This document shows, piece by piece, positions 5,634 to 21,860 of a stretch of DNA of 64,000 nucleotides. Below the pieces are notes generated by a model, which saw only the letters and a list, made by a program, of their open reading frames with translations, did no database searches and had not been told where the DNA came from. Position numbers and translations under genes: made by a program. This stretch comes from Xenococcus sp. PCC 7305. GTDB taxonomy: Bacteria; Cyanobacteriota; Cyanobacteriia; Cyanobacteriales; Xenococcaceae. How positions within the stretch are numbered: the first letter of the stretch is position 1; each line of letters begins with the position of its first letter. The DNA lies in NCBI RefSeq assembly GCF_000332055.1, contig NZ_ALVZ01000226.1, positions 1-64,000 of the forward strand, written 5' to 3'.

Positions 5634-8600
5634 ATGAATCCTGTACCTGACTTAAAGAAAGATTCTGGGGTTTCTCTGGGACAAACGGAACAAGAGCAAT
5701 TAAAATTTCTGGAGCTTTTAAAATTTCTGGAGCTTTATCAAATCATGTTTACTGCCAGAGAAATTGACCTGCTGGAGGAGCAATATACAACTAGAGGAGA
5801 GGCTTTTTTTCACGTATCAGGAGCAGGACATGAAGCTGTTGCAACTATTAATCCTTATCTAATTCCCGAAGACTATTTGCATTGTCATTATCGAGATAAG
5901 GCTTTGATGCTGGCTCGGGGGATCTCGGTGGAAATGTTTTTCCATAGTCTTTTTTGCAAAGATGCGTCTCATTCTCGGGGGCGGCAGATGAGCGCACATA
6001 TGAGCGATCCTACGACCAATATTTTGAGTTTAGTTGGGCCTGTGGGCAATAATGCCTTACAAGCTGTGGGCGTTGCTGCTGAAATTAAAGATCAACCGCA
6101 AAACCCTCTGGTGTTTTGTTCCTTGGGTGATGGTACTAGTCAACAGGGAGAAGTTTTAGAGGCGATCGCAGAGGCCGTACGTTGGCAATTACCTGTTTTA
6201 TTTCTCATTGAGGATAATCGTTTTTCGATTTCTACTCGCACAGAGAAAAAGACTTTCTATAATTTGCTAGATGGCATAGTAGATAATTTCTATGGTTTGC
6301 CGATTCACCATTTAGAGGGTAAAAATCCCCTTCTTTGTGACCAAGTTTTCCAAAAAATTGTTTCTGAGATCAGGGAAACTCGCAAACCAGCCTTAGCCTT
6401 AATGAAGCTGGAGCGACTAACTAGTCATACCAATACGGATGATCAATCGATCTATCGTGATCGTCAAGAGATCGAACAAGTTAGACAAGAATATGATCCG
6501 ATTAAAATTCTAAGATTTGAGCTAGAAAAATTGGGCTGTGACGCTCAAGAATTAGTGTCTATTGAGGGAAATATTCGCTCAATAGTTAAACAAGCAGCAA
6601 AAGATGCTCAATTCAGTAATGAACCCCAGGCTTATTTTGCGGCTAAAGCTCCTCTCCCTCAGCATTTGTCGAAAACCGCAACAGAATATGTAGGAAACTC
6701 CGATTCTAGGCGTGTAACCATGCTGAATGCCATGAATAAAGTTTTAGGCGATCGCCTAGAGCAAGATTCTCGGGTTTTTTTGTATGGGGAGGATATTGAA
6801 GATCCCAAAGGCGATGTCTTCGGCGTTACCAAAGGATTAAGCCGTAAATTTCCTGGTCGAGTTGTTAATTCTCCCTTAAGTGAATCTACTATTGTAGGGA
6901 CTGCTGTCGGCAGAGCCTTGGCTGGCGGTCGCCCTGTCGCCTTTCTCCAATTTGCTGATTTTTTACCTTTGGCTTTTAATCAGATTGTCTCCGAATTAGG
7001 CAGTATGTATTGGCGAAGCGATGGTGGTTGGCAATGTCCTGTCATTATTCTGATTACTTGTGGTGGCTATCGTCCTGGTTTAGGGCCTTTTCATGCTCAA
7101 TCCTTAGAAGCGATCGCAGTTCATACTCCTGGTCTTGATGTGGCAATGCCTTCGACCGCTGGAGATGCAGCAGGAATGCTAAACGCTGCCTTTGATTCGG
7201 GAAGACCAACCCTATTTTTCTATCCCAAAAGTTGCTTAAATCTAGTCGATTTAGCTGCTACGACTTCCGATGATCCCCAGCGCCATTGCGTTCCGGTGGG
7301 TAAAGCCAAAATAGTTCGTGCTGGCAGTGATATTACCTTCGTCGGTTATGGCAACGCGATCGCTAGATGTTTACAAGCAGCAGATGCTCTGGATATCGAG
7401 GGCATTAAATCAGAAGTTATAGATCTGCGCTGGCTGGCTCCTTGGGACGAAGAAACAGTTCTCAAATCTGTTAATAAAACTGGAAAATTAATTGTTGTTC
7501 ATGAAGATAATCAAAGTTGCGGCATGGGTGCCGAAATATTAGCGGTAGTAGCCGAAAAATCCTCAACTCCCGTGACAGCAAGACGAGTAACCAGAGCAGA
7601 TACCTATGTTCCTTGTAATTTTGGTAATCAACTAGAGATCTTGCCTTCCTATAAACGCATTTTAGAAACAGCGGCAGACTTATTAGATTTAGATCTAGAT
7701 TGGATAACTCCCCCAGCTACAGAAGAAGGAATCTTTATGGTGGATGCGATCGGCGTTGGACCTTCCGATGAGACGGTAATTGTTCTGGAATTGGATATCT
7801 CAGAGGGAGCAGAAGTTGCCGAAGGTCAATGTTTAGGGGTTTTAGAAGCTTCCAAGGCCGCTTTTGATTTAGAAGCCCCAGTTCAAGGTGTCGTTGAGAA
7901 AATTTATGTCACAGAGGATCAAGAAGTTGCTGTAGGTCAGCCTTTATTTAAAATTCGGATTGACAAGGATCATATTCCTGCTCCGAAACCCATTACCCGA
8001 GAAGATCCTGGTCAACCAGTTATCAAAAGAAGACAAGCTGTTACTACTGCGACCCAATTGATGAGCCGGGCAACTAAATTAAAGATTGGGATTCAAGGGA
8101 TTGCCTGTGTCTTAGGCTCCAAAAATATTACTAATGAAGAAGTTGTGCAATCAATTGCCGGGAAAGAAGCGAATGATGTTTTAAAACTCACCGGAATTGC
8201 CAGCCGTCATTGGATTGAGCCAGGAGAAACGGTGTTAACTCTGGCAAAAGACGCAGCTCAAAAAGTTTTAGCGGCGCAACAAGTTCAGATTCATGATATT
8301 GACCTCATTATTTGCACTACTGGGACACCTTCTCAGATAACGCCATCCCTAGCTTGTCAATTATTGTATGAGTTGGCAGGAAGTGATTATGAATGCCCAG
8401 CTTATGATCTCAATGCTGCTTGTAGTGGCTATTTATATGCTCTGCAAAATGCCTATTTATATTTACGAAAGCATCCTTCTTCCAAGGTTTTACTAGTTAC
8501 TTCAGAAATATTATCACCTCTTTTAGATCCGCAAAATTTCGATACCCAGATTATTTTTTCCGATGGTGCAACCGCAACTATATTATGCGGGGAAGCTCAT

Positions 8601-9041
8601 TTGGATTCTTGTTCTTTTGTGGTTAACGAACCTATCTTGAGTGGCAGTGGGGAACCGTTGGATTCTTTATATGTTCCTACGGTTAATAGCAGTCAGAACA
8701 TTTCGATGAAAGGCAGAAAAGTTTTTACTAAAGCTGTCAAGAAAATGACAAGTGTTTTAAATCAAGCTTGTACGAAAGAAAATATCAAAGTTACTGAGCT
8801 TGATTTAGTGATACCCCACCAAGCTAATCAACGAATTATTGACGCGATCGCCAAAAAAATTGGTTTTCCAGAGAAAGTTGCCTCCAACATCAAACATCAC
8901 GGCAATACATCTTCAAGTTCTATTCCTATTTATCTGGCGGAAAACTGGAGCACTCTCCAAAGCAAAAAGACCCTGGCCTTAACCGCATTTGGGGGTGGAT
9001 TTACCTATGCTGCTGCTATTTTAAATAGCTTAAGAAGATAA
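5634..9041 (+). CDS. Four-domain fusion: 2-oxo acid dehydrogenase E1 alpha + E1 beta + lipoyl domain + KAS III
   Basis: An 1135-residue cytosolic fusion. Residues about 25-330 are E1 alpha, with the thiamine diphosphate signature GDGTSQQGE beginning at residue 165. About 355-685 is the E1 beta/transketolase-like half. About 700-775 is a lipoyl domain with the modifiable Lys741 in LEASKAAFD. About 815-1135 is a KAS III (FabH-like) domain with an intact triad: Cys930 in NAACSG, His1062 in IPHQAN, Asn1091 in HHGNTSS. There is no E2 catalytic or E3-binding domain between lipoyl and KAS III. Inference: a 2-oxo acid is decarboxylated on ThDP, the acyl group moves to lipoate and then directly to the KAS III cysteine for condensation, perhaps with malonyl carried by the ACP encoded next. 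An exact 18-bp tandem duplication near the N-terminus duplicates six residues. Leads the six-gene cluster and contains several HIP1 sites. Confidence 0.9.
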   Translation: MNPVPDLKKDSGVSLGQTEQEQLKFLELLKFLELYQIMFTAREIDLLEEQYTTRGEAFFHVSGAGHEAVATINPYLIPEDYLHCHYRDKALMLARGISVEMFFHSLFCKDASHSRGRQMSAHMSDPTTNILSLVGPVGNNALQAVGVAAEIKDQPQNPLVFCSLGDGTSQQGEVLEAIAEAVRWQLPVLFLIEDNRFSISTRTEKKTFYNLLDGIVDNFYGLPIHHLEGKNPLLCDQVFQKIVSEIRETRKPALALMKLERLTSHTNTDDQSIYRDRQEIEQVRQEYDPIKILRFELEKLGCDAQELVSIEGNIRSIVKQAAKDAQFSNEPQAYFAAKAPLPQHLSKTATEYVGNSDSRRVTMLNAMNKVLGDRLEQDSRVFLYGEDIEDPKGDVFGVTKGLSRKFPGRVVNSPLSESTIVGTAVGRALAGGRPVAFLQFADFLPLAFNQIVSELGSMYWRSDGGWQCPVIILITCGGYRPGLGPFHAQSLEAIAVHTPGLDVAMPSTAGDAAGMLNAAFDSGRPTLFFYPKSCLNLVDLAATTSDDPQRHCVPVGKAKIVRAGSDITFVGYGNAIARCLQAADALDIEGIKSEVIDLRWLAPWDEETVLKSVNKTGKLIVVHEDNQSCGMGAEILAVVAEKSSTPVTARRVTRADTYVPCNFGNQLEILPSYKRILETAADLLDLDLDWITPPATEEGIFMVDAIGVGPSDETVIVLELDISEGAEVAEGQCLGVLEASKAAFDLEAPVQGVVEKIYVTEDQEVAVGQPLFKIRIDKDHIPAPKPITREDPGQPVIKRRQAVTTATQLMSRATKLKIGIQGIACVLGSKNITNEEVVQSIAGKEANDVLKLTGIASRHWIEPGETVLTLAKDAAQKVLAAQQVQIHDIDLIICTTGTPSQITPSLACQLLYELAGSDYECPAYDLNAACSGYLYALQNAYLYLRKHPSSKVLLVTSEILSPLLDPQNFDTQIIFSDGATATILCGEAHLDSCSFVVNEPILSGSGEPLDSLYVPTVNSSQNISMKGRKVFTKAVKKMTSVLNQACTKENIKVTELDLVIPHQANQRIIDAIAKKIGFPEKVASNIKHHGNTSSSSIPIYLAENWSTLQSKKTLALTAFGGGFTYAAAILNSLRR
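5701..5736 (+). repeat. 18-bp exact tandem duplication inside the fusion gene
   Basis: TAAAATTTCTGGAGCTTT occurs at 5701-5718 and again at 5719-5736 without a mismatch. It keeps the frame and duplicates six residues (LKFLEL) just before the E1 alpha core. The perfect identity suggests a recent slippage event. Confidence 0.9.
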
Positions 9042-9129: not shown

Positions 9130-9393
9130 ATGACAAAAACACAAATTAACAAAAAAACTCTGTTAGAAATTCAGGCATGGTTAGTTAATTATTTAGCTAA
9201 ATCTTTGGAAGTAGAAACAACAGAAATTGATATTAAGGCATCTTTTGATGAATATTCTTTAAATTCCCATGATGCTATTTACTTAACTGGGGAATTGGAA
9301 GAATGGTTGGGATTTGAATTAGAAGCTACTTTGCTCTATGAATATACTAACATCAAAGAACTTTCTGAACATTTAGATTCGCAAGATTTGTAA
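9130..9393 (+). CDS. Acyl carrier protein
   Basis: An 87-residue free-standing carrier protein with the four-helix ACP pattern. The phosphopantetheine attachment serine is Ser46 in the block EYSLNSHDA, followed by a helix with ELEEWLGFELE, as in ACPs paired with fatty acyl-AMP ligases. Thus an acyl chain loaded by the FAAL at 13923 could be presented to the oxoamine synthase, or malonyl to the KAS III domain upstream. It lies 88 bp after the fusion gene. The canonical DSL is replaced by NSH, somewhat unusual, but the serine is kept. Not the housekeeping acpP: context and the divergent motif point to a dedicated carrier. Confidence 0.88.
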   Translation: MTKTQINKKTLLEIQAWLVNYLAKSLEVETTEIDIKASFDEYSLNSHDAIYLTGELEEWLGFELEATLLYEYTNIKELSEHLDSQDL

Positions 9394-9549: not shown

Positions 9550-10356
9550 ATGATAATGAAAAAATCAAGTTTTTTTAAAAACAAGTTGGTTTGGATCACA
9601 GGAGCATCTTCTGGAATTGGAGAGCATCTTACTTATCAACTCGCAAATCTTGAAGCTAATTTGGTTATTTCAGCTCGTACAGAAAGTGAATTGCAGCGAG
9701 TAAAAGCTAATTGCAATAATAACGCCAATATTATGGTTTTGCCCCTTGATTTATCTGATATTAATTCAATTAAAGATAAGGTTAAAAAAGTAAAAGAAGT
9801 ATTTGGCAAAATTGATATTTTAATAAATAATGCTGGAATTGGTCAAAATGGATTTGTAGCCGATACCCAAATTAATATTTATCAGAAAGTTCTAGATATT
9901 AATTTAATAGGTACAATTACTTTGACTAAAGCTGTAGCTCCTATTCTACAAGCACAAGGACATGGTCAAATAACTATTGTTAGCAGTATTTTAGGACATG
10001 TAGTTTTGCCTAAGTATTCAGCTTATAGTATGTCTAAACATGCTTTAAATGCCTTTGCTCACACCATTAGATTAGAACTAAAAAAAGATAATATTCAAGT
10101 CCTACTTGTTTGTCCAGGGGCAACTCAAACCAATATGGAAGAGAAAGCAATTAATGGTTCTGGGAAAGTTATGGGAATAAAACCTAAAGAATATGAAACT
10201 TGGCTGCTTCCTGAAAAAGTTGCCCAAAAAATTATCATTGGTATCCAATCAGGAAAACGAGAAGTTATAATTGGTCATTGCTATGAAAAATTGGCGGTAT
10301 TCATCAATCGCTATTTTCCTTCAATCTATTTCAAATTAGCAGTTGACTTTGAATAA
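9550..10356 (+). CDS. Short-chain dehydrogenase/reductase
   Basis: A 268-residue classical SDR, cytosolic or membrane-associated. The cofactor motif TGASSGIG is at about 17-24, NNAGIG at about 93-98, a serine (VSSI) at about 147, and the catalytic YSMSK tetrad segment at about 159-163, so an active NAD(P)-dependent oxidoreductase is expected. Within this cluster the likely substrate is the 3-keto product of the oxoamine synthase, by analogy with 3-ketodihydrosphingosine reductases; this is inference from neighbours. An alternative start lies two codons in, at 9556. No clear Shine-Dalgarno is seen. This gene and the next two lack HIP1 octamers and are more AT-rich than the flanking cluster genes, which hints at a different origin. 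Confidence 0.9.
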   Translation: MIMKKSSFFKNKLVWITGASSGIGEHLTYQLANLEANLVISARTESELQRVKANCNNNANIMVLPLDLSDINSIKDKVKKVKEVFGKIDILINNAGIGQNGFVADTQINIYQKVLDINLIGTITLTKAVAPILQAQGHGQITIVSSILGHVVLPKYSAYSMSKHALNAFAHTIRLELKKDNIQVLLVCPGATQTNMEEKAINGSGKVMGIKPKEYETWLLPEKVAQKIIIGIQSGKREVIIGHCYEKLAVFINRYFPSIYFKLAVDFE

Positions 10357-10490: not shown

Positions 10491-11384
10491 ATGAGATATG
10501 TTTCAGGCATAATGCCACTATTTATGACAATAATTTCCTTGGCTATTGTAGTTATTGAATGGATTACACTGACAATCACTAAGAAAATTGAAAGCCATAA
10601 GGAAGGAATTGTCAATATTTCTAGTGCGGCTTTAACTTATATCCCAATTTTTATCACCAATAAATTGATAACTATTTCCTTAATGTTCTGGATTTATCAA
10701 TATAGATTATTCGATCTAAAATTTGATTGGTATGTCTGGATATTAGCCTATATAGGATATGATTTTATGTCCTATGCCATTCATTATTTATCTCATAAAG
10801 TCCGTCTTTTTTGGTGTATTCATACAGTGCATCATTCTCCAAAGGAAATGAAAGCATCTGTTGCTTTTAGAGGTTCTTTTGCCGAATTCATCCTGGCTCC
10901 TCATCTAACTCTGTGGCTTCCTATTTTAGGATTTCATCCTCTTTTGATCATAATAATTGATGGAATTGGTCAACTTTATGGTGTCCCGCTTCACCTCAAC
11001 CAACATATATTCCCAGATTCAAAATATTCCGGAATACAAAAATTCTTGATTACACCATCAGTACATAGACTTCACCATGCCAAGAATGATATTTATCTAG
11101 ATAGAAATTATGGTCTAACATTTAGGATTTGGGACTATCTATTCCAAACCTCTCAGGTAGAATTACAGCAAGAAAAACCCATTTATGGCATAAGCAAAAA
11201 CATTAACAGCGAAAACCTATTAGTTTCCCAAACTGATGAGTTTATTGAACTATGGCAAGATATCAAAAATGCTCCTAGTTGGCTTGACAAAATTAAATAT
11301 TTGGTGATGCCTCCTGGCTGGAATTATATTAATGGAGGATATACAGCTGAAAATATAAGAAACAATGCCTTATTGAAACTATAG
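10491..11384 (+). CDS. Fatty acid hydroxylase / sterol desaturase superfamily membrane protein
   Basis: A 297-residue integral membrane di-iron oxygenase. Several hydrophobic helices (about 8-28, 47-70, 80-100, 140-165) surround the histidine clusters of the family: HYLSH (about 98-102), HTVHH (about 111-115), HLNQH (about 167-171) and HRLHH (about 193-197). Members hydroxylate or desaturate lipid chains using oxygen and an electron donor. In this cluster a C4- or alpha-hydroxylation of a long-chain base or amide-linked acyl chain is an attractive guess, as with the eukaryotic SUR2-type hydroxylases; a carotenoid- or sterol-type substrate cannot be excluded. It lies 134 bp after the SDR, same strand, with no HIP1 site and AT-rich codon use. 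Confidence 0.88.
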   Translation: MRYVSGIMPLFMTIISLAIVVIEWITLTITKKIESHKEGIVNISSAALTYIPIFITNKLITISLMFWIYQYRLFDLKFDWYVWILAYIGYDFMSYAIHYLSHKVRLFWCIHTVHHSPKEMKASVAFRGSFAEFILAPHLTLWLPILGFHPLLIIIIDGIGQLYGVPLHLNQHIFPDSKYSGIQKFLITPSVHRLHHAKNDIYLDRNYGLTFRIWDYLFQTSQVELQQEKPIYGISKNINSENLLVSQTDEFIELWQDIKNAPSWLDKIKYLVMPPGWNYINGGYTAENIRNNALLKL

Positions 11385-11428: not shown

Positions 11429-13879
11429 ATGCCTAAAAATCTTCATGCTCATTGGGTAAAAACTATCGATAAACTTGTTGAAAATGGCATCAAGCAAGGT
11501 TTAAATCAACATTTTACTGATAATGAATTTCTGAATGGAAGAATTATAACTCTTCAAGATCGCAATTATGTTAACTTTGGCTCCTGTAGCTATTTGGGCC
11601 TAGAACAACATCATAAATTAATTGATGGAGTTACAGACGCAGTAAGAAAATATGGCACACAATTTTCTTCTTCTAGGGCTTATGTCGCCGTCGGACTGTA
11701 TCAAGAATTAGAAACTTTATTACAAGAGATTTTTGATAAACCTGTTGTCGTTACAGCCAGTACAACTTTAGGGCATTTATCAGCTTTACCAATTTTGATA
11801 GGAGATAATGATTGTATTCTTCTCGACTATCAAGTTCATTCCAGTGTGCAAATGGCCGCGCAAGTGCCTAAAGCTCGTGGAGTTGATGTGGAAATTCTGC
11901 GTCACAATTCCATGACGCAACTAGAAGAAACCATCAAAAAAATTAAACATAAATACGATAAAATCTGGTACTTGGCTGATGGTATTTACTCTATGTATGG
12001 AGATGTAGCACCTTTACCAGAGTTAGTCCGTTTATTGGATACTTATCCACAGCTTTATGCCTATATTGATGATGCTCATGGTATGAGTTGGACGGGGAAA
12101 AATGGTAGAGGCTATGTTCGCAGTCAAATCGACCATCATTCTAAAATGGTATTAGCAGTTTCGTTGAATAAATCCTTTGCTAGTGCGGGGGGAGCCTTAG
12201 TCTTTCCTAATGAAACTTTCACTAGCCAAGTTAAAAATTGTGGCAATACCATGATTTTTTCTGGGCCAATTCAACCACCAATGCTCGGGGGTGGCGTGGC
12301 TTCGGCTAAACTCCATTTATCAGAGGAAATTGTAGATTATCAGAATGAATTAAAGGAGCTCATTAAATATACAAATCAATGTATTACTGAGCTAAATATC
12401 CCTCAAGTTGAAATTAATGATAATCCGATCTTTTTTATTCCTGTTGGCCTAGTTAAACCTATTCAATCTTTTGTCTCTCGAATAATTAAAGATGGATTTT
12501 TTGTTAACCCTGCGGCCTTTCCGGCAACGCCAATGAAACAAGGTGGGATACGTTTTTCTCTGACTCGTCACATATTGAAACGTGATATAGAACAACTTCT
12601 TGAGCGGATTGCTTTTCACTATCCTGTAGTCTTACAAGAACATAATTTTACGGAACAAGATGTAGCCAAGAATTTCCAGATTCCTGAGTTTCAAATTCAA
12701 TCAAGTCAGGAAAAATTTGGCTTTGTTTCGCTGAAAAATCATTCATCTTCTAAGCTTGATATTCAATTTACTCGTCGCTTAAAGGACATTAATGCTCAAG
12801 AATGGGATAATCTATTTGCGACCAAAGGTAACTTTACTTACTCTAGTATTGAATTACTGGAAAAGGTTTTTACATCACAAGATAATGAGCCAGAAAATCA
12901 GTGGGATTTTTTCTATTTTATAGTCAAAGATGAAGCTGATAAAATTGTTTTAGCGACATTTTATACCTGTGCCAAAATAAAAGAAGATATGTTCTCTTCT
13001 CAAGAAGTATCAAAAAAAGTAGAAGCGATGCGTCTTGATGATCCAGATTATCTTACTGGCAAAGCAGTGATGTTAGGATGTCTGATGTCTAAAGGAGAAC
13101 ATCTTTATCTTAATCGTCAGCATTCTCGATGGAAACAGGCACTTCGTTTATTGGTTGAGCAAATTTCTCTTACGGTACAAGAATATCAAGCATCTCAGGT
13201 GTTATTAAGAGATTTTCCCTTGAATGACGATGAAGAATTAAAAAATACAATGTTTGACCTTGGTTTTGTGCAATTACCTTTACTAGATATATGTATTATG
13301 CAGGATTTGTCTTGGTCAACTCACCAAGAATATATGACTAGGTTAGGACGTAAGTATCGTTACAATGTCAAAAAAGAAATATTGGCCTATGAATCTCAAT
13401 TTGAAGTAATTATTGATTCTGAGATGTCACCAAGGGAAATTCGCCACAGTTATGAACTATATCGTCAAGTTCAACAAAGAGCTTATGAGTTGAATGTTTA
13501 TCCGCTTCCCTATGCCTTTTTTGAAGCAATTTGTCATCATCCTGACTATGATATTATGCGGCTTTATCTCAAGGATGATCCAGCATCTAGAGCTGAGGAG
13601 AAACCAGTGGCAGTTATGTTTAGCTTTGTGAATGCCGGTGTTTATTCGGCTTTAATTGTTGGTTTGGACTATCAATATTTAAGAACTCACAATATCTATA
13701 AACAAATTCTTTATCAAACTGTACAAAGATCTAGGGAGTTAGAATGTCAAACTTTAGACTTGGCTTACACCGCAGTTTTAGAAAAGAAAAAAGTTGGAGC
13801 TAGACCTCATCCGATGTGTGCCTATGTTCAATCTTTGGATCGTTATAGCCAGGCAGTACTTGATGCGATGGTAGTTTGA
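11429..13879 (+). CDS. Alpha-oxoamine synthase fused to a GNAT/FemAB-like N-acyltransferase
   Basis: An 816-residue bifunctional protein. Residues about 20-400 are a PLP-dependent alpha-oxoamine synthase (serine palmitoyltransferase / KBL / AONS family). The cofactor lysine is Lys248 in SLNKSFASAGG, and DDAH (Asp215, His217) contacts the pyridine ring. Such enzymes condense an acyl thioester with an amino acid and release CO2. Residues about 440-816 form an acyltransferase of the GNAT/FemAB-like type, with the core RLGRKYRYNVKKEI and later LIVGLDYQYL. Bacterial ceramide synthases of the Caulobacter type are also GNAT-related, so this half could N-acylate the amine made by the first half. Which amino acid is used cannot be read. 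Autoinducer (CqsA-like) or sulfonolipid-type condensations are alternatives. It lies 44 bp after the hydroxylase and 43 bp before the FAAL. Confidence 0.87.
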   Translation: MPKNLHAHWVKTIDKLVENGIKQGLNQHFTDNEFLNGRIITLQDRNYVNFGSCSYLGLEQHHKLIDGVTDAVRKYGTQFSSSRAYVAVGLYQELETLLQEIFDKPVVVTASTTLGHLSALPILIGDNDCILLDYQVHSSVQMAAQVPKARGVDVEILRHNSMTQLEETIKKIKHKYDKIWYLADGIYSMYGDVAPLPELVRLLDTYPQLYAYIDDAHGMSWTGKNGRGYVRSQIDHHSKMVLAVSLNKSFASAGGALVFPNETFTSQVKNCGNTMIFSGPIQPPMLGGGVASAKLHLSEEIVDYQNELKELIKYTNQCITELNIPQVEINDNPIFFIPVGLVKPIQSFVSRIIKDGFFVNPAAFPATPMKQGGIRFSLTRHILKRDIEQLLERIAFHYPVVLQEHNFTEQDVAKNFQIPEFQIQSSQEKFGFVSLKNHSSSKLDIQFTRRLKDINAQEWDNLFATKGNFTYSSIELLEKVFTSQDNEPENQWDFFYFIVKDEADKIVLATFYTCAKIKEDMFSSQEVSKKVEAMRLDDPDYLTGKAVMLGCLMSKGEHLYLNRQHSRWKQALRLLVEQISLTVQEYQASQVLLRDFPLNDDEELKNTMFDLGFVQLPLLDICIMQDLSWSTHQEYMTRLGRKYRYNVKKEILAYESQFEVIIDSEMSPREIRHSYELYRQVQQRAYELNVYPLPYAFFEAICHHPDYDIMRLYLKDDPASRAEEKPVAVMFSFVNAGVYSALIVGLDYQYLRTHNIYKQILYQTVQRSRELECQTLDLAYTAVLEKKKVGARPHPMCAYVQSLDRYSQAVLDAMVV

Positions 13880-13922: not shown

Positions 13923-15677
13923 ATGATCAATCAAAAATTTAAGTTTTTGCCTCAACATCAATTAAATTCTATGGCTGATATTCTTAGTTATCAGGCGGCA
14001 ACTAAACCCAATGCAACAGCATATATTTTTCTGCAAAATGGGGAGAGAGAAACGGCTAGAATAACTTATCAAGAATTGGAGAAAAAAGCCAAAGAAATAG
14101 CTGTTTATCTTCAGGCATGGCAAGGAGAAAGAGCCTTATTACTTTATCCGCCTGGATTGGAATTTGTTACCGCATTTTTTGGTTGTTTATATGCAGGAGT
14201 TATTGCCATTCCTGTTTATCCCCCACGGCGTAATCAAAAGTTATCTCGCTTACTGATGATTGTTAATGATGCTGAAGCAAACTTAGCATTCACAACTACG
14301 GCAATTTATGATGATATTCAAAAAAGATGGACTGAAGAAACCAAGTTAGCCAATCTAAAATTGATTGCTACAGATACGATTGAAGCTAATAGTCAAGATT
14401 TTATTGTTAAATCCATTGCTCCTGAAAGTTTAGCTTTTTTACAATATACTTCTGGGACAACAGGAAAGCCCAAAGGGGTCATGGTTAGTCATGGCAATAT
14501 TGTTCACAATCAACAGGTAATTCATCGTGCTAGTCTGCTAAACGAGGAGAGTATTATTGTCAGTTGGTTGCCGATGTTTCATGATTTAGGATTAATTGGC
14601 AACGTTTTATATTCAGTTTATTTGGGATCTTCTATTATTTTGATGCCTCCGGTGGCCTTTCTCCAAAAACCGATACGTTGGTTAAGAGCGATCGCGAAAT
14701 ATCAAGGGAATGCTAGTGGTGGGCCTAATTTTGCTTACAATGCTTGCATTGAAAAAATTAAGCCAGAACAGTTAGAAGATCTCGATCTTAGTAGTTGGCA
14801 GATCGCTTTTAATTGTGGGGAAAATGTTTTAGCGAAAACTATAGAACAATTTAGTACCAAATTTGCTCTCTATGGTTTTAGTAAAAATTCTTTTTATCCT
14901 TATTATGGATTAGCAGAAGGAACTTTATTTGTTACGGGAAGACAAAAAAATACGGAGCTGATTATTAAAGATTTTGAGGCTACGGCTTTGGAGCAAAATC
15001 AGGTGCTTGAAAGTGCAGCAAATAAATTATCTTCTCGTCGGTTAGTTAGTTGTGGTCATTGTTGTTTGGATGATCAAGTAGTAATTGCTAATCCTCAAAC
15101 TTTAACTTCTTGCCCTGAGGGGGAAGTAGGGGAAATTTGGGTTTCAGGAAAAACTGTTGCTCTAGGATATTGGCAACAAAATGACAATGCTACATTTAAA
15201 GCTTTTCTTAAAGATAGAGTGGAAGGTCCATTTTTACGTACTGGGGATTTAGGTTTTGTATGGCAAGGTGAGCTGTATATTACGGGTCGTCTCAAAGAAG
15301 TTATTATTATCAGAGGGCAAAATCATTATCCTCAAGATCTAGAATTTACAGTACAACAAACTCATCAAGCTTTAAGAAAGAATCACGGAGCAGCTTTTAC
15401 TGTAGATATTGATGGTCAAGAGAAATTAATTATCGTTCAAGAAATAGAACGTCAGTACCGAAAAACCTTCAATAAACAGGAGCTCACTCGTCTGATCAAT
15501 AAAAATGTTACAGCTCAACATGGATTGGATATTCATACTATTCTCTTTGTCAAACCTGGTGCGATCGCTAAAACTTCTAGTGGCAAAATTCAACGTCTGA
15601 TTTGTCGAGAAATATTTCTTCGAGGAGAATTTATTAGTTTAGGTGAGACCAAACAATTAGCAAAGCTCTCTATGTAA
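13923..15677 (+). CDS. Fatty acyl-AMP ligase (FAAL)
   Basis: A 584-residue ANL-superfamily enzyme that adenylates a free fatty acid and, in the FAAL branch, hands it to an ACP rather than CoA. Motifs: phosphate loop YTSGTTGKPKG (about 177-187), FHDLGLIG, the YYGLAEGTLFVTG block (about 321-333) typical of FAALs, RTGDLG (about 439-444), and the C-terminal KTSSGKIQR with the catalytic lysine. The FAAL reading rests on the FHDLGLIG and YGLAEGTLFVTG blocks and on the dedicated ACP upstream. It closes the cluster, followed by a hairpin region and the convergent KH gene. It has HIP1 sites, unlike the three genes before it. Likely role: activating the acyl chain for the oxoamine synthase or for N-acylation. 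Confidence 0.92.
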   Translation: MINQKFKFLPQHQLNSMADILSYQAATKPNATAYIFLQNGERETARITYQELEKKAKEIAVYLQAWQGERALLLYPPGLEFVTAFFGCLYAGVIAIPVYPPRRNQKLSRLLMIVNDAEANLAFTTTAIYDDIQKRWTEETKLANLKLIATDTIEANSQDFIVKSIAPESLAFLQYTSGTTGKPKGVMVSHGNIVHNQQVIHRASLLNEESIIVSWLPMFHDLGLIGNVLYSVYLGSSIILMPPVAFLQKPIRWLRAIAKYQGNASGGPNFAYNACIEKIKPEQLEDLDLSSWQIAFNCGENVLAKTIEQFSTKFALYGFSKNSFYPYYGLAEGTLFVTGRQKNTELIIKDFEATALEQNQVLESAANKLSSRRLVSCGHCCLDDQVVIANPQTLTSCPEGEVGEIWVSGKTVALGYWQQNDNATFKAFLKDRVEGPFLRTGDLGFVWQGELYITGRLKEVIIIRGQNHYPQDLEFTVQQTHQALRKNHGAAFTVDIDGQEKLIIVQEIERQYRKTFNKQELTRLINKNVTAQHGLDIHTILFVKPGAIAKTSSGKIQRLICREIFLRGEFISLGETKQLAKLSM

Positions 15678-16604: not shown

Positions 16605-19145
16605 TCACCGAGTCATGAAAGCATTGGTCGCTCGACAAGAATCAACATTTAACAATACTTCTGCGGGCAATTGAGAAAACCATTGATTGCTAAATTGCTC
16701 TAGGTTTTTGCTTTTTAAAAAACCGTTGATCATATCTTGCCATTGACGATCATTATCGGGAAGTAAAATCCCATAATAATCACAAGTTAGAGGTTGCTGA
16801 GGGAAGAGTAGATAATCACCACTGGTTAAGCCTTGGCGTTCGATTTCCTGGCTAGACAAAATGCTGCTACTGGCAAAGGCATCAATGGACTTATTTTGTA
16901 GAGCTCCTACTGCTCTGGCGATCGCATTTTCCCCTTCAAAATACATTTTTTCCGCTGTGGGATATTTTGCTTCAATGAACTTTTCTGTCGTGGTATTTCT
17001 AACTACACCAATAGTGAAATCTGCCAAATCTGCAATTTTCCCGACCTGCTCAGCCCAGTCACTAGAGACCAGAAACTTAGTTCCCGTGGCAAAGAAGGGT
17101 TGAGAGAAAGTGAGATCCTCAATATCATTCCTAATGGAATTGGGACCGCATTCGAGATGGACTTGGTCCTGTTGTACTAGTTGATAGCGATTTGAGACAT
17201 TAGAAGGCAATTTGACGACTTGAATCCCGCCAGGCCGGTTCAACGCTATTTCGAGATGCTGTTCTAGCGAATTGATAAAACTAGCACAGTAACCAGACCA
17301 ATTTGCATTTTCCTCTAGAAACCCGAAGGGTTTGGCATCGCTTCTTACCGCCACTTTTAGGACTCCAGTGCGCTCAATTTCCTCTAAAATTGACTCCTCT
17401 CGTGGGGCTTTAGCTACCGTCACAGGATTGGGCAGCAAGGGAAAAGGTGGCTTTTTGCCGTAGGCAGTTTCTAGTTGTTCTGGTTGCAAAGATTGAGTCA
17501 GATAAAGACGAATATCCGCTTCTTGGGACATCTTCTTAGTATGAGCCGCCGTGAGATAGGGTTTATATTCTGCTAATTCTCGTAGATGATAATTAAAGAA
17601 AGCAACCGACATTGTCTTGAGATAATCATAGGCGATCGCGCTTTGGCCATTTAGTTGGTTGGAACTATCCAGCGCAGGCATGCCCTCTAGTCCCACTTGC
17701 TCTACAGTAGAAAAATGAGTTCCTGGATCTAGTAAAGTAAAATACCGCTCGGGGGTTTCTAACCAGAAAAAAGGATGAATTTGATTTTGAACAGGGGGAA
17801 CCGTGGTGTCTTTGCTGCTAGACCAAATCATCGTGGGGATCTCAAGAGTGGCCATTCCCTCAGGGCCGAAAATTGGATTAGTTAGGGGATATACGGCAAA
17901 GACAGCCTTGATGCGAGGATCTCTTAACTGAAAACTAATCGGTGGGAGATGTTGCGCTTGGCACTGAAAGTAAAAACTAAAAACAGGGTTCAAATCGTCT
18001 TGACTGCATTCTGCTGCTAGTCTAGGTTGATTAATTTCTGCTCCTGCGATCGCAAGTGCACTATAACCCCCGAAAGAATAACCAAAAACGCCTACCTGCT
18101 CCAGATTGAGTTTAGCTGCCCATTGCGGGTCTTGGGCTGTCAAATTCTCTAATTCATCTAACAAGTAAGTCACATCCAAGGGACGACTAATAAATTCAGC
18201 AGGATTAATCCAACCGCTTAGTTCTCTATTGGGCGAGGCCATACGCTGAGCTAAATTAGTTCCATGATGCTCGATAGAGGCCACCGCATAACCAAAGGAG
18301 GCCAATTGTTGAGCTACATAGCCATAGGTATCTGGGGTCGCGCCAAAGCCTTGGGTGATAATGATTAAAGGAGCTGGGTCAGGATTGTCCTGGGGAAGAT
18401 ATAAGTCAAAATCTAAAGTATAGGAAGAAGCTAGTCCAATATTAATTGAGCGCAAACTATCAACTTCAAAAGACATTGTTTGCTTGCTTACTTGCCAAGG
18501 ACCAGGTTGGCTCAAATCTTCAAGTTGCGAGACATCGAGGCGCGAGTTTTGCGCTTCCGCTTCCGACTGCTGAATAATTTCTGTGACGACTGCTTTTTGA
18601 TAGCTAGATAACTTGGCTAAATCTCGTCCAATCTGAATTAAATAATCAGAGTCGAGATAAATATCTTTGGTGGGAAAATGACGTAAAAAATTAATTACCG
18701 TGAGACCTTCTTCCTCATCTGCTGCGGACAAAATTGCCGCGGCTCTCATGCCATAAAAGCCATTAACCCCAGGACTTATCTTGACAGCTTTACCTATCTT
18801 GTTAAGTATTTCTTCAGCTATGGGAAGACGGGCGTAACGGGCAAGAAAAGCAGGCTCAATGTCAAAGCGCTGTTGAAGAAGTTCTCGTAGTTGAACTTTG
18901 GTGGCCTCATCAAGACGATTGGTAATTAGAGCGAGATCAGAATTAGCTTGTCCTTGTTCGGCAAAAGTTTCCAGATCATCAACTGAAATAGCTAGTTGTA
19001 GCGGCCCGACAAAAGTCACAATTCTCTCCGCAGACAAAATCGGTTTGGGTCTGAGCAAAACTGCTATGGTACTTATGCCCATAAATAAACAAGCAGTTGT
19101 TACTAGATTAAGTAATCTCTGGTGATTGGCTTTCGTTGGAGACAT
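16605..19145 (-). CDS. Exported alpha/beta hydrolase (DUF1400 N-domain) fused to a solute-binding domain
   Basis: An 846-residue protein. An N-terminal hydrophobic segment (about 13-32) looks like a signal peptide or anchor. Next comes a DUF1400-type region, starting near AERIVTFVGPLQLAISVDDL, found in cyanobacterial hydrolases. An alpha/beta hydrolase follows with the nucleophile elbow GYSFGG (serine near residue 356) and a PAF-acetylhydrolase/dienelactone-like core ending with a THFST histidine (about 470). From about 580 to 835 there is a second, unrelated domain beginning ERTGVLKVAVRSDAKPFGF, which resembles family 3 (amino-acid type) periplasmic binding proteins. Joining an esterase to a ligand-binding domain in one exported chain is unusual; a split ORF or sequencing fusion cannot be excluded, but the frame is open throughout. 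Confidence 0.85.
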   Translation of the reverse strand: MSPTKANHQRLLNLVTTACLFMGISTIAVLLRPKPILSAERIVTFVGPLQLAISVDDLETFAEQGQANSDLALITNRLDEATKVQLRELLQQRFDIEPAFLARYARLPIAEEILNKIGKAVKISPGVNGFYGMRAAAILSAADEEEGLTVINFLRHFPTKDIYLDSDYLIQIGRDLAKLSSYQKAVVTEIIQQSEAEAQNSRLDVSQLEDLSQPGPWQVSKQTMSFEVDSLRSINIGLASSYTLDFDLYLPQDNPDPAPLIIITQGFGATPDTYGYVAQQLASFGYAVASIEHHGTNLAQRMASPNRELSGWINPAEFISRPLDVTYLLDELENLTAQDPQWAAKLNLEQVGVFGYSFGGYSALAIAGAEINQPRLAAECSQDDLNPVFSFYFQCQAQHLPPISFQLRDPRIKAVFAVYPLTNPIFGPEGMATLEIPTMIWSSSKDTTVPPVQNQIHPFFWLETPERYFTLLDPGTHFSTVEQVGLEGMPALDSSNQLNGQSAIAYDYLKTMSVAFFNYHLRELAEYKPYLTAAHTKKMSQEADIRLYLTQSLQPEQLETAYGKKPPFPLLPNPVTVAKAPREESILEEIERTGVLKVAVRSDAKPFGFLEENANWSGYCASFINSLEQHLEIALNRPGGIQVVKLPSNVSNRYQLVQQDQVHLECGPNSIRNDIEDLTFSQPFFATGTKFLVSSDWAEQVGKIADLADFTIGVVRNTTTEKFIEAKYPTAEKMYFEGENAIARAVGALQNKSIDAFASSSILSSQEIERQGLTSGDYLLFPQQPLTCDYYGILLPDNDRQWQDMINGFLKSKNLEQFSNQWFSQLPAEVLLNVDSCRATNAFMTR

Positions 19146-19952: not shown

Positions 19953-21860
19953 ATGGTTAAAGATTTTGGTTCATCTTCTATTTATACAAAGAACAGTAGT
20001 ACATCCTCGTCACTACTATCAGCGACCAAAGGAACAACCATCAATAAATTACAGCAAGCATCCGTCAAACTATTCTGTGTTCTTGGTTTGCTCACGGTCA
20101 ATGTTTTTGGCCAATCGTTAGTGGCCAGAGCTGCTGAAGTTAAAAATAATAATGAGACTGCTTCTTTAGATCAGATTATTTGTCTTGCTACTTCGGGCAA
20201 TGGTTACAATTGGGCTGCTACTTTTACTTGGGCCTCAGAAATGATTAGAGATGCGATCGCTCAAGCTCCTCCAGAAGCGAGGTTTAATGCGGCTTGTGTT
20301 TCGGGGGCAAGCTCGGGAAGTGCGTTTGTTTCTGTTTATGGTTCACTTTTAAACAATAAAAAATTATTTGCTCGTGGGGATTATAGTCCCCAAGATATGA
20401 CGAGAGCAGAAGCCCAGATTCTCTCTAAGTCTTTACTCTACATGGCCCTGGCTGCTGACTTTCGACCCGAAGTTACTAGGTTTTACGTTTCTAAAGATGG
20501 TGATTCTCAGCCTGTTCCCCCTTGGTGGAAATCCCAATTTACCCTCGAAAGAGTGATGCTAGATTTTGGCACTAGGGTCATGCTTGCCCAGAATATTTCT
20601 CTTACAGATATCAATCAAGTTGAGCAACTAGAGCAATTTGTTCAGTATCAGACTGTGGCTGAATTAGAAGCAGTAGCCAAAAATAAAGAAATTCGCAATC
20701 AATATCGTCAGGTCACCTTTGATATTTGGGAGCAATCTCAGGAGATTATTAACCAGCTTTATCAAAATGCTAATTATCCTAGAACAGCAAGAAAAGAAGA
20801 TCGGGATGATTTTCGTGATAATCCTGACCATCCTGTCCGCCAAGCTTTAGCCCAGCAACCTCCTGAGGGTATCTTAGCTATGACCTATGGAGAATTGGCC
20901 TATACTGAGTCCCAAGTTGATTATCAAAATATGCGCTCCCAGGCTCCTCCGGTAGATGTATTGGTGCCCTTTGTCTTTACGAGTGAAGCCACAGCCAAGA
21001 AAATTATTCGATCGCCTTTTTATCGCGCTCAGGTAACGGGACAAGATCCCTATGTAGATCAATATGTGATCTCTGTTGTGCCAGATTATTTCACCATGAT
21101 TCGCCATGGAGTGAGAGAGCCTAATCTGCTTCCTGTGGGACTCTATCGTGTTTCCCCTGCCATAGAAGGTACGGATCGCGAGTTTACAGCAGAGATCAGT
21201 AAGTTTTATCAACCCTTAGCGGAAGCACAATGGCAAAGTGAACCCAGCTTTAAACTATTTCCTAGTACTCGTAGTTTGTTGCAAGATGGCAAGTTACTCA
21301 ATGCTCAGATGGGGATTGCTGGGGGCTGGATCGACAGCTATGTTGGCGGACAAGCAACTCTTTATTTGGGGTCTGGTTACGCCAATGAAAAATCTAACTC
21401 TAATTTATATTATTCGACCTTTTCTGGCCAGGATGGGATGAGTAACTTTGCCCAGCAGGTAGTGAAAAAATATTTTGCGCCACAGGATTCTAAGCAGGCA
21501 ATTGCTGAGATTGAAGCCCACAGAGAGCATTTACCAGTATTGATAAATCGTTATCAGGAGTTTCATGCTAACCATGAAATTAGTTGGCAACCCATATTTG
21601 TTGATTGGTCGGTTCGCTTCTTTTCCGAAAACAAAAAACTGATAGGGAAAATCATTGGCAAGGTTGATAATGTTCTAAAGCTGGGATTTAACTATCTACC
21701 AGTGGCCAATACTAAGCAATCTAATTATCTTTTGGCGAGAACCATGAATGTTGTTCGTCAAACCCTTGGTCTTGATGAAGGGCAAGGTTATATTTTTGAT
21801 CGAGCATATGCAGATCGTCATTATCGGCAAAAGGTGCAACAGGAAGCAGAGTCTGACTGA
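19953..21860 (+). CDS. Exported patatin-like phospholipase/acylhydrolase
   Basis: 635 residues. After a Ser/Thr-rich start there is a hydrophobic stretch (about 37-58) ending in ARAAE, a likely signal peptide, though with an extended n-region. The domain begins with the glycine-rich IICLATSGNGYNWAA (about 76-90, oxyanion-hole role). The nucleophile elbow GASSG centres on Ser120, and the catalytic aspartate is probably Asp461 in GGWIDSYVGG, so the Ser-Asp dyad of patatins is present, with a DS instead of the usual DG/DA. The product would hydrolyse acyl lipids in the periplasm or outside the cell. The long insert between the dyad residues is unlike plant patatin. Ends 14 bp from the convergent MFS gene. 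Confidence 0.75.
   Translation: MVKDFGSSSIYTKNSSTSSSLLSATKGTTINKLQQASVKLFCVLGLLTVNVFGQSLVARAAEVKNNNETASLDQIICLATSGNGYNWAATFTWASEMIRDAIAQAPPEARFNAACVSGASSGSAFVSVYGSLLNNKKLFARGDYSPQDMTRAEAQILSKSLLYMALAADFRPEVTRFYVSKDGDSQPVPPWWKSQFTLERVMLDFGTRVMLAQNISLTDINQVEQLEQFVQYQTVAELEAVAKNKEIRNQYRQVTFDIWEQSQEIINQLYQNANYPRTARKEDRDDFRDNPDHPVRQALAQQPPEGILAMTYGELAYTESQVDYQNMRSQAPPVDVLVPFVFTSEATAKKIIRSPFYRAQVTGQDPYVDQYVISVVPDYFTMIRHGVREPNLLPVGLYRVSPAIEGTDREFTAEISKFYQPLAEAQWQSEPSFKLFPSTRSLLQDGKLLNAQMGIAGGWIDSYVGGQATLYLGSGYANEKSNSNLYYSTFSGQDGMSNFAQQVVKKYFAPQDSKQAIAEIEAHREHLPVLINRYQEFHANHEISWQPIFVDWSVRFFSENKKLIGKIIGKVDNVLKLGFNYLPVANTKQSNYLLARTMNVVRQTLGLDEGQGYIFDRAYADRHYRQKVQQEAESD

Follow-up and report, generated by a model that had tools for sequence, protein, structure and literature searches.

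A cyanobacterial alpha-oxoamine synthase fused to a double-GNAT transferase and its Bacteroidota relatives beside signal transduction genes

PMC9386255 attributes dihydroceramide formation to a set consisting of yghO, a fatty acyl-AMP ligase (FAAL), an epimerase, an acyl carrier protein (ACP) and spt, and states that 3-oxo-sphinganine formation in E. coli needs SPT, ACP and acyl-CoA synthetase jointly. For Caulobacter, the order of steps has been proposed as acylation followed by reduction (cited in PMC9386255). In E. coli BL21, the N-acyltransferase yghO, FAAL, epimerase, ACP and spt lie together as separate genes. AHK signalling, the field of the pairs CqsA/CqsS and LqsA/LqsS, is placed in aquatic gamma-proteobacteria by PMC3376566. 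How does a cyanobacterial gene that joins an alpha-oxoamine synthase to a putative N-transferase on one chain compare with these systems?

The window analyzed here is a 64,000-nucleotide stretch of Xenococcus sp. PCC 7305 (contig NZ_ALVZ01000226.1, positions 1 to 64,000), in which the gene under study occupies 11429-13879 (+). It is one ATG-started open reading frame of 816 amino acids with zero internal stops, and the strand opposite is full of stops and not open. Pfam places Aminotran_1_2 (PF00155) at residues 46-394 (E 7.6e-22, model positions 2-361 of 361) and Acetyltransf_6, a GNAT family, at residues 641-778 (E 5.7e-10). The N-terminal half (11429..12736, +), including a linker up to residue 436, is assigned as a PLP-dependent alpha-oxoamine synthase (AOS) with K248, and the C-terminal half (12737..13879, +) as a double-GNAT, FemABX-like transferase. 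A preliminary description of this DNA had proposed an oxoamine synthase fused to a GNAT/FemAB-like half, with Lys248 as the PLP site. The single frame, the homologues and the conserved residues confirm that the AOS-GNAT fusion is real and that both halves are conserved, and K248 is the lysine of SLNKSF, invariant in all 42 aligned fused proteins. This alignment holds 2 cyanobacterial and 40 Bacteroidota proteins and excludes L062 (632 aa, at a contig end) and L073 (a frameshift), which are both kept in the 42-locus neighborhood count given below; contig ends truncate L064 and L074. A model of the full-length fusion has a mean pLDDT of 58.2 and is the basis for no claim made here. PADLOC returned no match for 7 proteins, and a role in a defense system was ruled out on that ground.

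The fused gene is the fifth of six on the same strand, separated by intergenic gaps of 88, 156, 134, 44 and 43 bp, in an operon with a GC content of 29-42%; upstream of it lie RND efflux genes in the opposite direction. The first gene (5634..9041, +) encodes an 1135-aa fusion in which the Pfam and NCBIfam domains follow in the order E1-alpha, E1-beta, lipoyl and FabH-like KAS III, the E1 part being of the 2-oxoacid dehydrogenase type. Next come an ACP of 87 aa (9130..9393, +; PP-binding E 2.1e-13), a short-chain dehydrogenase/reductase (SDR) of 268 aa (9550..10356, +; adh_short E 7.1e-51; PRK06181 222.3 bits, cut-off 215), a fatty acid hydroxylase superfamily protein of 297 aa (10491..11384, +; PF04116 E 4.6e-25) and, beyond the fusion, a 584-aa FAAL that is likely an acyl-ACP synthetase (13923..15677, +; AMP-binding E 4.1e-68). 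This FAAL shares 29% identity over 554 columns with its counterpart in the sphingolipid cluster of E. coli BL21 (E 2e-72); the SDR does not clearly resemble the BL21 epimerase (E 0.094). FAAL, ACP and fusion occur together in both cyanobacterial loci, namely the window and a Xenococcaceae MAG. The operon resembles the bacterial ceramide set spt/acpR/aasR/cerR/cerS (Caulobacter; the BL21 yghO cluster) in that an AOS, an ACP, a FAAL, a reductase and an N-transferase are co-encoded. It differs from that set in that its transferase is fused and of another sequence family, its AOS lies outside SPT, and an E1-lipoyl-KASIII protein and a hydroxylase are additionally encoded.

Judged from its domains, the E1-lipoyl-KASIII chain would decarboxylate a 2-oxoacid and deliver the resulting acyl group directly to the ketoacyl synthase. 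A genome of the same genus (G001) encodes a full-length 72% homologue of it and has no AOS-GNAT gene. Beside this homologue (G001:C179:2960-6349; L120, L121) lie a further KAS III-like gene and one of the Glu/Leu/Phe/Val dehydrogenase family, the latter of which hints at branched 2-oxoacids as starters. Elsewhere in the window, 16605-19145 (-) encodes an 846-aa protein with a DUF1400 alpha/beta-hydrolase portion and a GrrP-like portion of the extracellular solute-binding type, and the 635-aa frame at 19953-21860 (+) has zero Pfam or NCBIfam matches. In the Xenococcaceae locus, a 348-aa protein (L007:7575-8621, -) lies between the ACP gene and the fusion, and neither it nor an 82-aa neighbor matches a Pfam family over cut-off.

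Residues H137, D214, H217, K248 and R375 of the AOS half are invariant in 42 of 42 fused rows, and the core residues of the fused proteins align with SPT, BioF and KBL rows; for SPT, PMC6148460 gives His159, Asp231, His234 and Lys265. In a phmmer search, the matches to PDB chains of BioF, SPT and KBL reached a best E of 1.6e-33. Based on this invariance and alignment, the AOS half is expected to be an active alpha-oxoamine synthase. To which family does it belong? The window protein scores far under the cut-offs of the curated SPT models (NF047600, 156.7 bits against 640; NF047599, 127.9 against 500; NF047603, 93.4 against 670), and in both AOS trees, the second of which was built from 27 of 42 fused and 15 of 17 unfused rows (the latter described below) plus the viral-collection sequence L124, the AOS clade stands apart from the SPT, BioF and KBL rows with support 100/100. 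These scores and the separate clade rule out membership in the SPT family. The AOS clade carries CSYLGL where the SPT, BioF and KBL rows carry (N/D)YLGL, and the amino acid substrate may for this reason be other than serine. Membership in the CqsA family is likewise ruled out, since against the AHK synthase model NF005526 (CqsA/LqsA; cut-off 428) the window protein reaches 75.8 bits and unfused clade members at most 89. The top NCBIfam match of fused and unfused members is PRK07505 (NF005697; 262 bits, below the cut-off of 342), a family annotated as 'hypothetical protein' and the nearest named one to the AOS half. Its plasmid example, a PRK07505-type AOS on E. coli plasmids (L095:7883-10221), is unfused and adjoins an MFS transporter, unlike the window gene. 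Canonical SPT is present in 1 of the 34 genomes with the fusion and in 37 of all 395, a co-occurrence that does not depart from chance (p 0.23), which rules out the fusion as its replacement.

The AlphaFold2 model of residues 436-816, built from four sequences, has a mean pLDDT of 83.2 and contains two GNAT domains rather than one. Comparison by Foldseek and VIA-align gave FemX 6snr as the best match (Z 22.8, rmsd 4.4 over 305), ahead of FemA 1lrz (Z 21.7, rmsd 4.5 over 297), Sbb17/Sba18 (Z 21.6), Weissella FemX (20.3), MprF (about 17) and N-myristoyltransferases (NMT; Z about 16, 16.4), with about 5-15% identity in the structural alignments to double-GNAT transferases; no ceramide synthase was recognized among the best 50 fold matches of each comparison. 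The C-terminal half thus has the fold of FemABX and other double-GNAT transferases (FemX, Sbb17, the MprF C-domain, NMT, mycothiol synthase), and unlike FemABX-type transferases it is fused to an AOS. The preliminary description had counted modeling as a peptidoglycan FemX with tRNA-binding features, or as a catalytically dead fold, against its own reading. This outcome is seen in part: the C-terminal model does look most like FemX and FemA, but in a fold that is common to NMT, which are fatty-acyl transferases. Its polar residues K518, D520, S528, R535 and D595 are present in 42 of 42 rows and K786 in 41 of 42, and these residues together with the shared fold of FemX and NMT argue that it is not decayed but probably a live transferase; a dead transferase is ruled out by the conserved polar residues.

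Is this half a relative of the known ceramide N-acyltransferases? The hhalign comparison of the 42-row C-half with a 12-row YghO family (E. coli YghO with 11 homologues from plasmids, 25-64% identity), a comparison whose reach at such distance is uncalibrated, gave a probability of 0.2 and E 0.32, and profile comparison with YghO alone found nothing. YghO/CerS family membership was rejected on this absence of profile similarity. The CoA loop [QRK]xxGx[GA] is found in 0 of 42 rows at residues 738-775, in the second GNAT domain, one row ending before that stretch. When the whole C-half is considered, the pattern occurs in 5 of 42 rows; of the 12 YghO-family members, 6 have it at some position in the protein, so that half of that family is without it. 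No FemAB sequence model matched the window protein at E 0.001; PF04339 FemAB_like reached 24.7 bits against a cut-off of 27 in the Aureivirga C-half only. FemA has a long helical arm; the longest helices in the C-half model measure 17-19 residues.

Full-length fused homologues are scarce around the host of the window, with one other in 100 genomes of its relatives (its own counted) and no other among 388 genomes of its class (its own included). A scan of a genome collection by two peptide patterns only, so that its three matches are a lower bound, found the Xenococcaceae MAG MO_167.B27 (78-79% identity), Aureivirga marina (45%) and a Bacteroidetes MAG (39%). The C-half profile matched in 96 of 395 sampled genomes of Aureivirga's class (Bacteroidota), where 41 fused genes in 34 genomes stand out together with E values of 1e-49 or below; almost all occupy long frames, with one frameshifted and a few truncated at contig ends. 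The remaining profile matches are unfused GNATs (E 1e-13 to 1e-24, frames of 337-491 aa); a weak match on a Persicobacter plasmid (H61) is a GNAT without an AOS. Occurring as a distinct group in this many genomes, the fused state is an old and widespread Bacteroidota architecture. In the AOS-half trees, the window and Xenococcaceae proteins pair at 100/100, and the pair groups among Bacteroidota rows with Aureivirga (L012) and L066 (99/92 in the first tree, 98/94 in the second). This nesting inside Bacteroidota fits a transfer from there, and the fused gene has apparently moved horizontally from Bacteroidota to cyanobacteria. In the second tree, whose backbone is poorly resolved, the fused members are not one clade.

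What surrounds the fused genes in Bacteroidota? Neighbors were taken from our own ORF calls (ATG/GTG/TTG, greedy by length) and labeled by phmmer seeds, and kinases, regulators and DUF7793 were confirmed by Pfam in samples. The count covers 42 Bacteroidota loci and leaves out the window and the Xenococcaceae locus (L007). Within 3 kb of the fused gene, DUF7793 is present at 37 of the 42 loci and at least one kinase or regulator gene also at 37 (histidine kinase 30, response regulator 23, AraC 5), although the seeds, taken partly from counted loci (L013, L055, L056, L066, L067, L071, L080, L085, L124), somewhat favor the fused set. By comparison, AOS paralogue loci from 20 fused-bearing genomes have DUF7793 at 0 of 20 and a histidine kinase, response regulator or AraC gene at 1 of 20, and unfused GNAT loci have neither (0 of 11 for each); Fisher tests against the paralogues, which ignore the shared descent of loci, give 6e-12 for DUF7793 and 2e-10 for the kinase and regulator genes. 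A frequent arrangement sets the fusion divergent from DUF7793, a PAS/HisKA_3 kinase and a LuxR-type regulator in that order. By a simple hydropathy rule, 33 of the 36 kinases lack a predicted membrane span, and most are soluble PAS kinases. DUF7793 itself (e.g., L080:11592-11987) is a small family that most often stands divergent to the fused gene and is multi-copy in some genomes; 1 of 3 DUF7793 proteins scanned at a loose threshold gave a sub-cut-off, SpoIIAA-like match. It was found neither in three cyanobacterial genomes queried nor in Aureivirga's genome (G458), and the Aureivirga locus and L066 are two of the five Bacteroidota fused loci without DUF7793 nearby. No FAAL or ACP gene lies within 3 kb at any of the 42 loci, where a KAS III is near one fused gene and an SDR near one; the absence of FAAL and ACP argues that a lipid operon was not the ancestral setting.

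The AOS clade also has unfused members. A search with the AOS half found 42 places in 39 of 198 genomes, 25 of them in fused frames of 648-862 aa and the other 17 unfused, in frames of 423-497 aa (L157-L173). All of the unfused loci except L157, L158, L160 and L162 (13 of 17) adjoin a kinase or response regulator. The 10 seed-recognized kinases at these loci have 3-5 predicted membrane spans, and L159 holds a further His_kinase-type protein with 4. On a viral-collection contig (L124:4569-9920), the AOS gene ends 3 bp before a HisKA_7TM kinase gene, which is followed by a response regulator.

From the observed architecture, conserved catalytic residues, operon content and origin inside a Bacteroidota clade, we infer a reaction order, substrates, donor and product for the fusion. 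The best explanation, which we regard as having about an even chance of being correct, is a bifunctional protein that carries out aminoketone formation and N-capping on one chain. The N-terminal half, with PLP on K248, would condense an acyl thioester with an amino acid and, upon decarboxylation, give an alpha-aminoketone, and the C-terminal half, as a FemABX-type double GNAT, would put an acyl or, less likely, an aminoacyl group on the new amine. In the cyanobacterium, the FAAL would load a fatty acid, possibly branched and begun by the E1-lipoyl-KASIII protein, on the dedicated ACP, and the fusion would use acyl-ACP in one or both steps; the SDR would afterwards reduce and the hydroxylase hydroxylate the product. 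Because the operon resembles the acyl-ACP logic of ceramide synthesis, that product is best read as an N-acylated aminoketone or sphingoid-like lipid, and by analogy the acylation-then-reduction order of Caulobacter would suit an AOS-acyltransferase fusion. The earlier proposal that one chain both forms the skeleton and N-acylates the amine is thus retained as far as the AOS residues, the transferase fold and the ACP, FAAL and SDR genes favor it, and is given up with respect to kinship with ceramide synthases. Counting against the bifunctional explanation are the lack of kinship to ceramide synthases, the tRNA-dependent enzymes among the best folds, the missing CoA loop and the Bacteroidota loci free of FAAL and ACP. 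Those best folds, with FemX, FemA, Sbb17/Sba18 and Weissella FemX all scoring above NMT, and the missing loop would agree with a C-terminal half that is an aminoacyl-tRNA-dependent amide synthase (FemX/Sbb17-like) and adds an amino acid to the aminoketone. The donor cannot be read from fold ranking alone, however, and the FAAL and ACP at both cyanobacterial loci point to acyl-ACP; with the short helices of the model also against it, we consider this variant unlikely.

A literal SPT-ceramide synthase fusion producing keto-ceramide from serine is more improbable still, even though AOS chemistry stands beside ACP, FAAL and SDR as in the BL21 spt cluster: the SPT model scores, the separate position in both trees, CSYLGL in place of (N/D)YLGL, a C-half unrelated to YghO by profile, and a co-occurrence of canonical SPT with the fusion that departs from chance in neither direction all argue against it. 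The claim of the preliminary description that SPT and ceramide synthase are covalently linked here is abandoned on the SPT scores, the tree and the C-half comparison. Nothing was found in favor of an artefact of assembly or annotation, or of gene decay, and either has practically no chance of explaining an identical fusion found in dozens of genomes with invariant catalytic residues, and the homologues rule out a chance ORF as well. A more serious alternative, which we hold as a real if tentative possibility, is that the clade makes an aminoketone-derived autoinducer or intracellular messenger that is sensed or controlled by the adjacent histidine kinases, as with CqsA/CqsS and LqsA/LqsS, with the GNAT modifying the signal, and that the cyanobacterium took the synthase into a lipid operon. 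It is compatible with the bifunctional explanation, which concerns chemistry. The enrichment of DUF7793 and of kinase and regulator genes over both control sets, the unfused AOS genes beside multi-span kinases and the 3-bp spacing on the viral-collection contig all speak for a signal. Yet the mostly soluble kinases beside fused genes may merely regulate the gene, no kinase lies near the window gene, the cyanobacterial genomes queried lack DUF7793, and the AHK synthase model scores low.

Of widest general interest is how tightly the AOS clade is linked to signal transduction in Bacteroidota. We tentatively propose, as an idea that we consider rather doubtful, that Bacteroidota possess an undescribed AOS-based chemical signalling family of two branches, whose fused synthase was captured by a cyanobacterium. 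In one branch, which recalls cqsA-cqsS, a multi-span histidine kinase would be the partner of an unfused AOS; in the second, the AOS would be fused to an amine-capping double GNAT and operate with the possibly STAS-like DUF7793 and soluble PAS kinases. In the cyanobacterium, the captured synthase would have been rewired to serve a lipid operon that runs on acyl-ACP and has a starter enzyme of its own, the E1-lipoyl-KASIII protein. To our knowledge, Bacteroidota have no widely accepted lipid autoinducer. If the neighborhood reflects signalling, the phylum would have a genetically tractable candidate, whose synthase, kinase and regulator genes all fit in a single short locus. The literature searched, which included few subscription journals and no preprints, contained in print no AOS-GNAT fusion, no DUF7793 and no link of this AOS clade to Bacteroidota signal transduction.

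Should the fusion act as proposed, a single chain would carry out both C-C bond formation and lipid-amine N-capping, steps for which the bacterial sphingolipid pathways described in the sources consulted use separate genes. Relative to CqsA/CqsS and LqsA/LqsS, the AOS family differs, and the fused GNAT and DUF7793 are without counterpart in those systems as described in PMC3376566. The likeness lies in the organization of the loci: Bacteroidota members of the clade adjoin a histidine kinase gene, in many cases together with one for a response regulator, and usually at the unfused loci, as well as on the viral-collection contig, the order of AOS and kinase is that of cqsA-cqsS and lqsA-lqsS.
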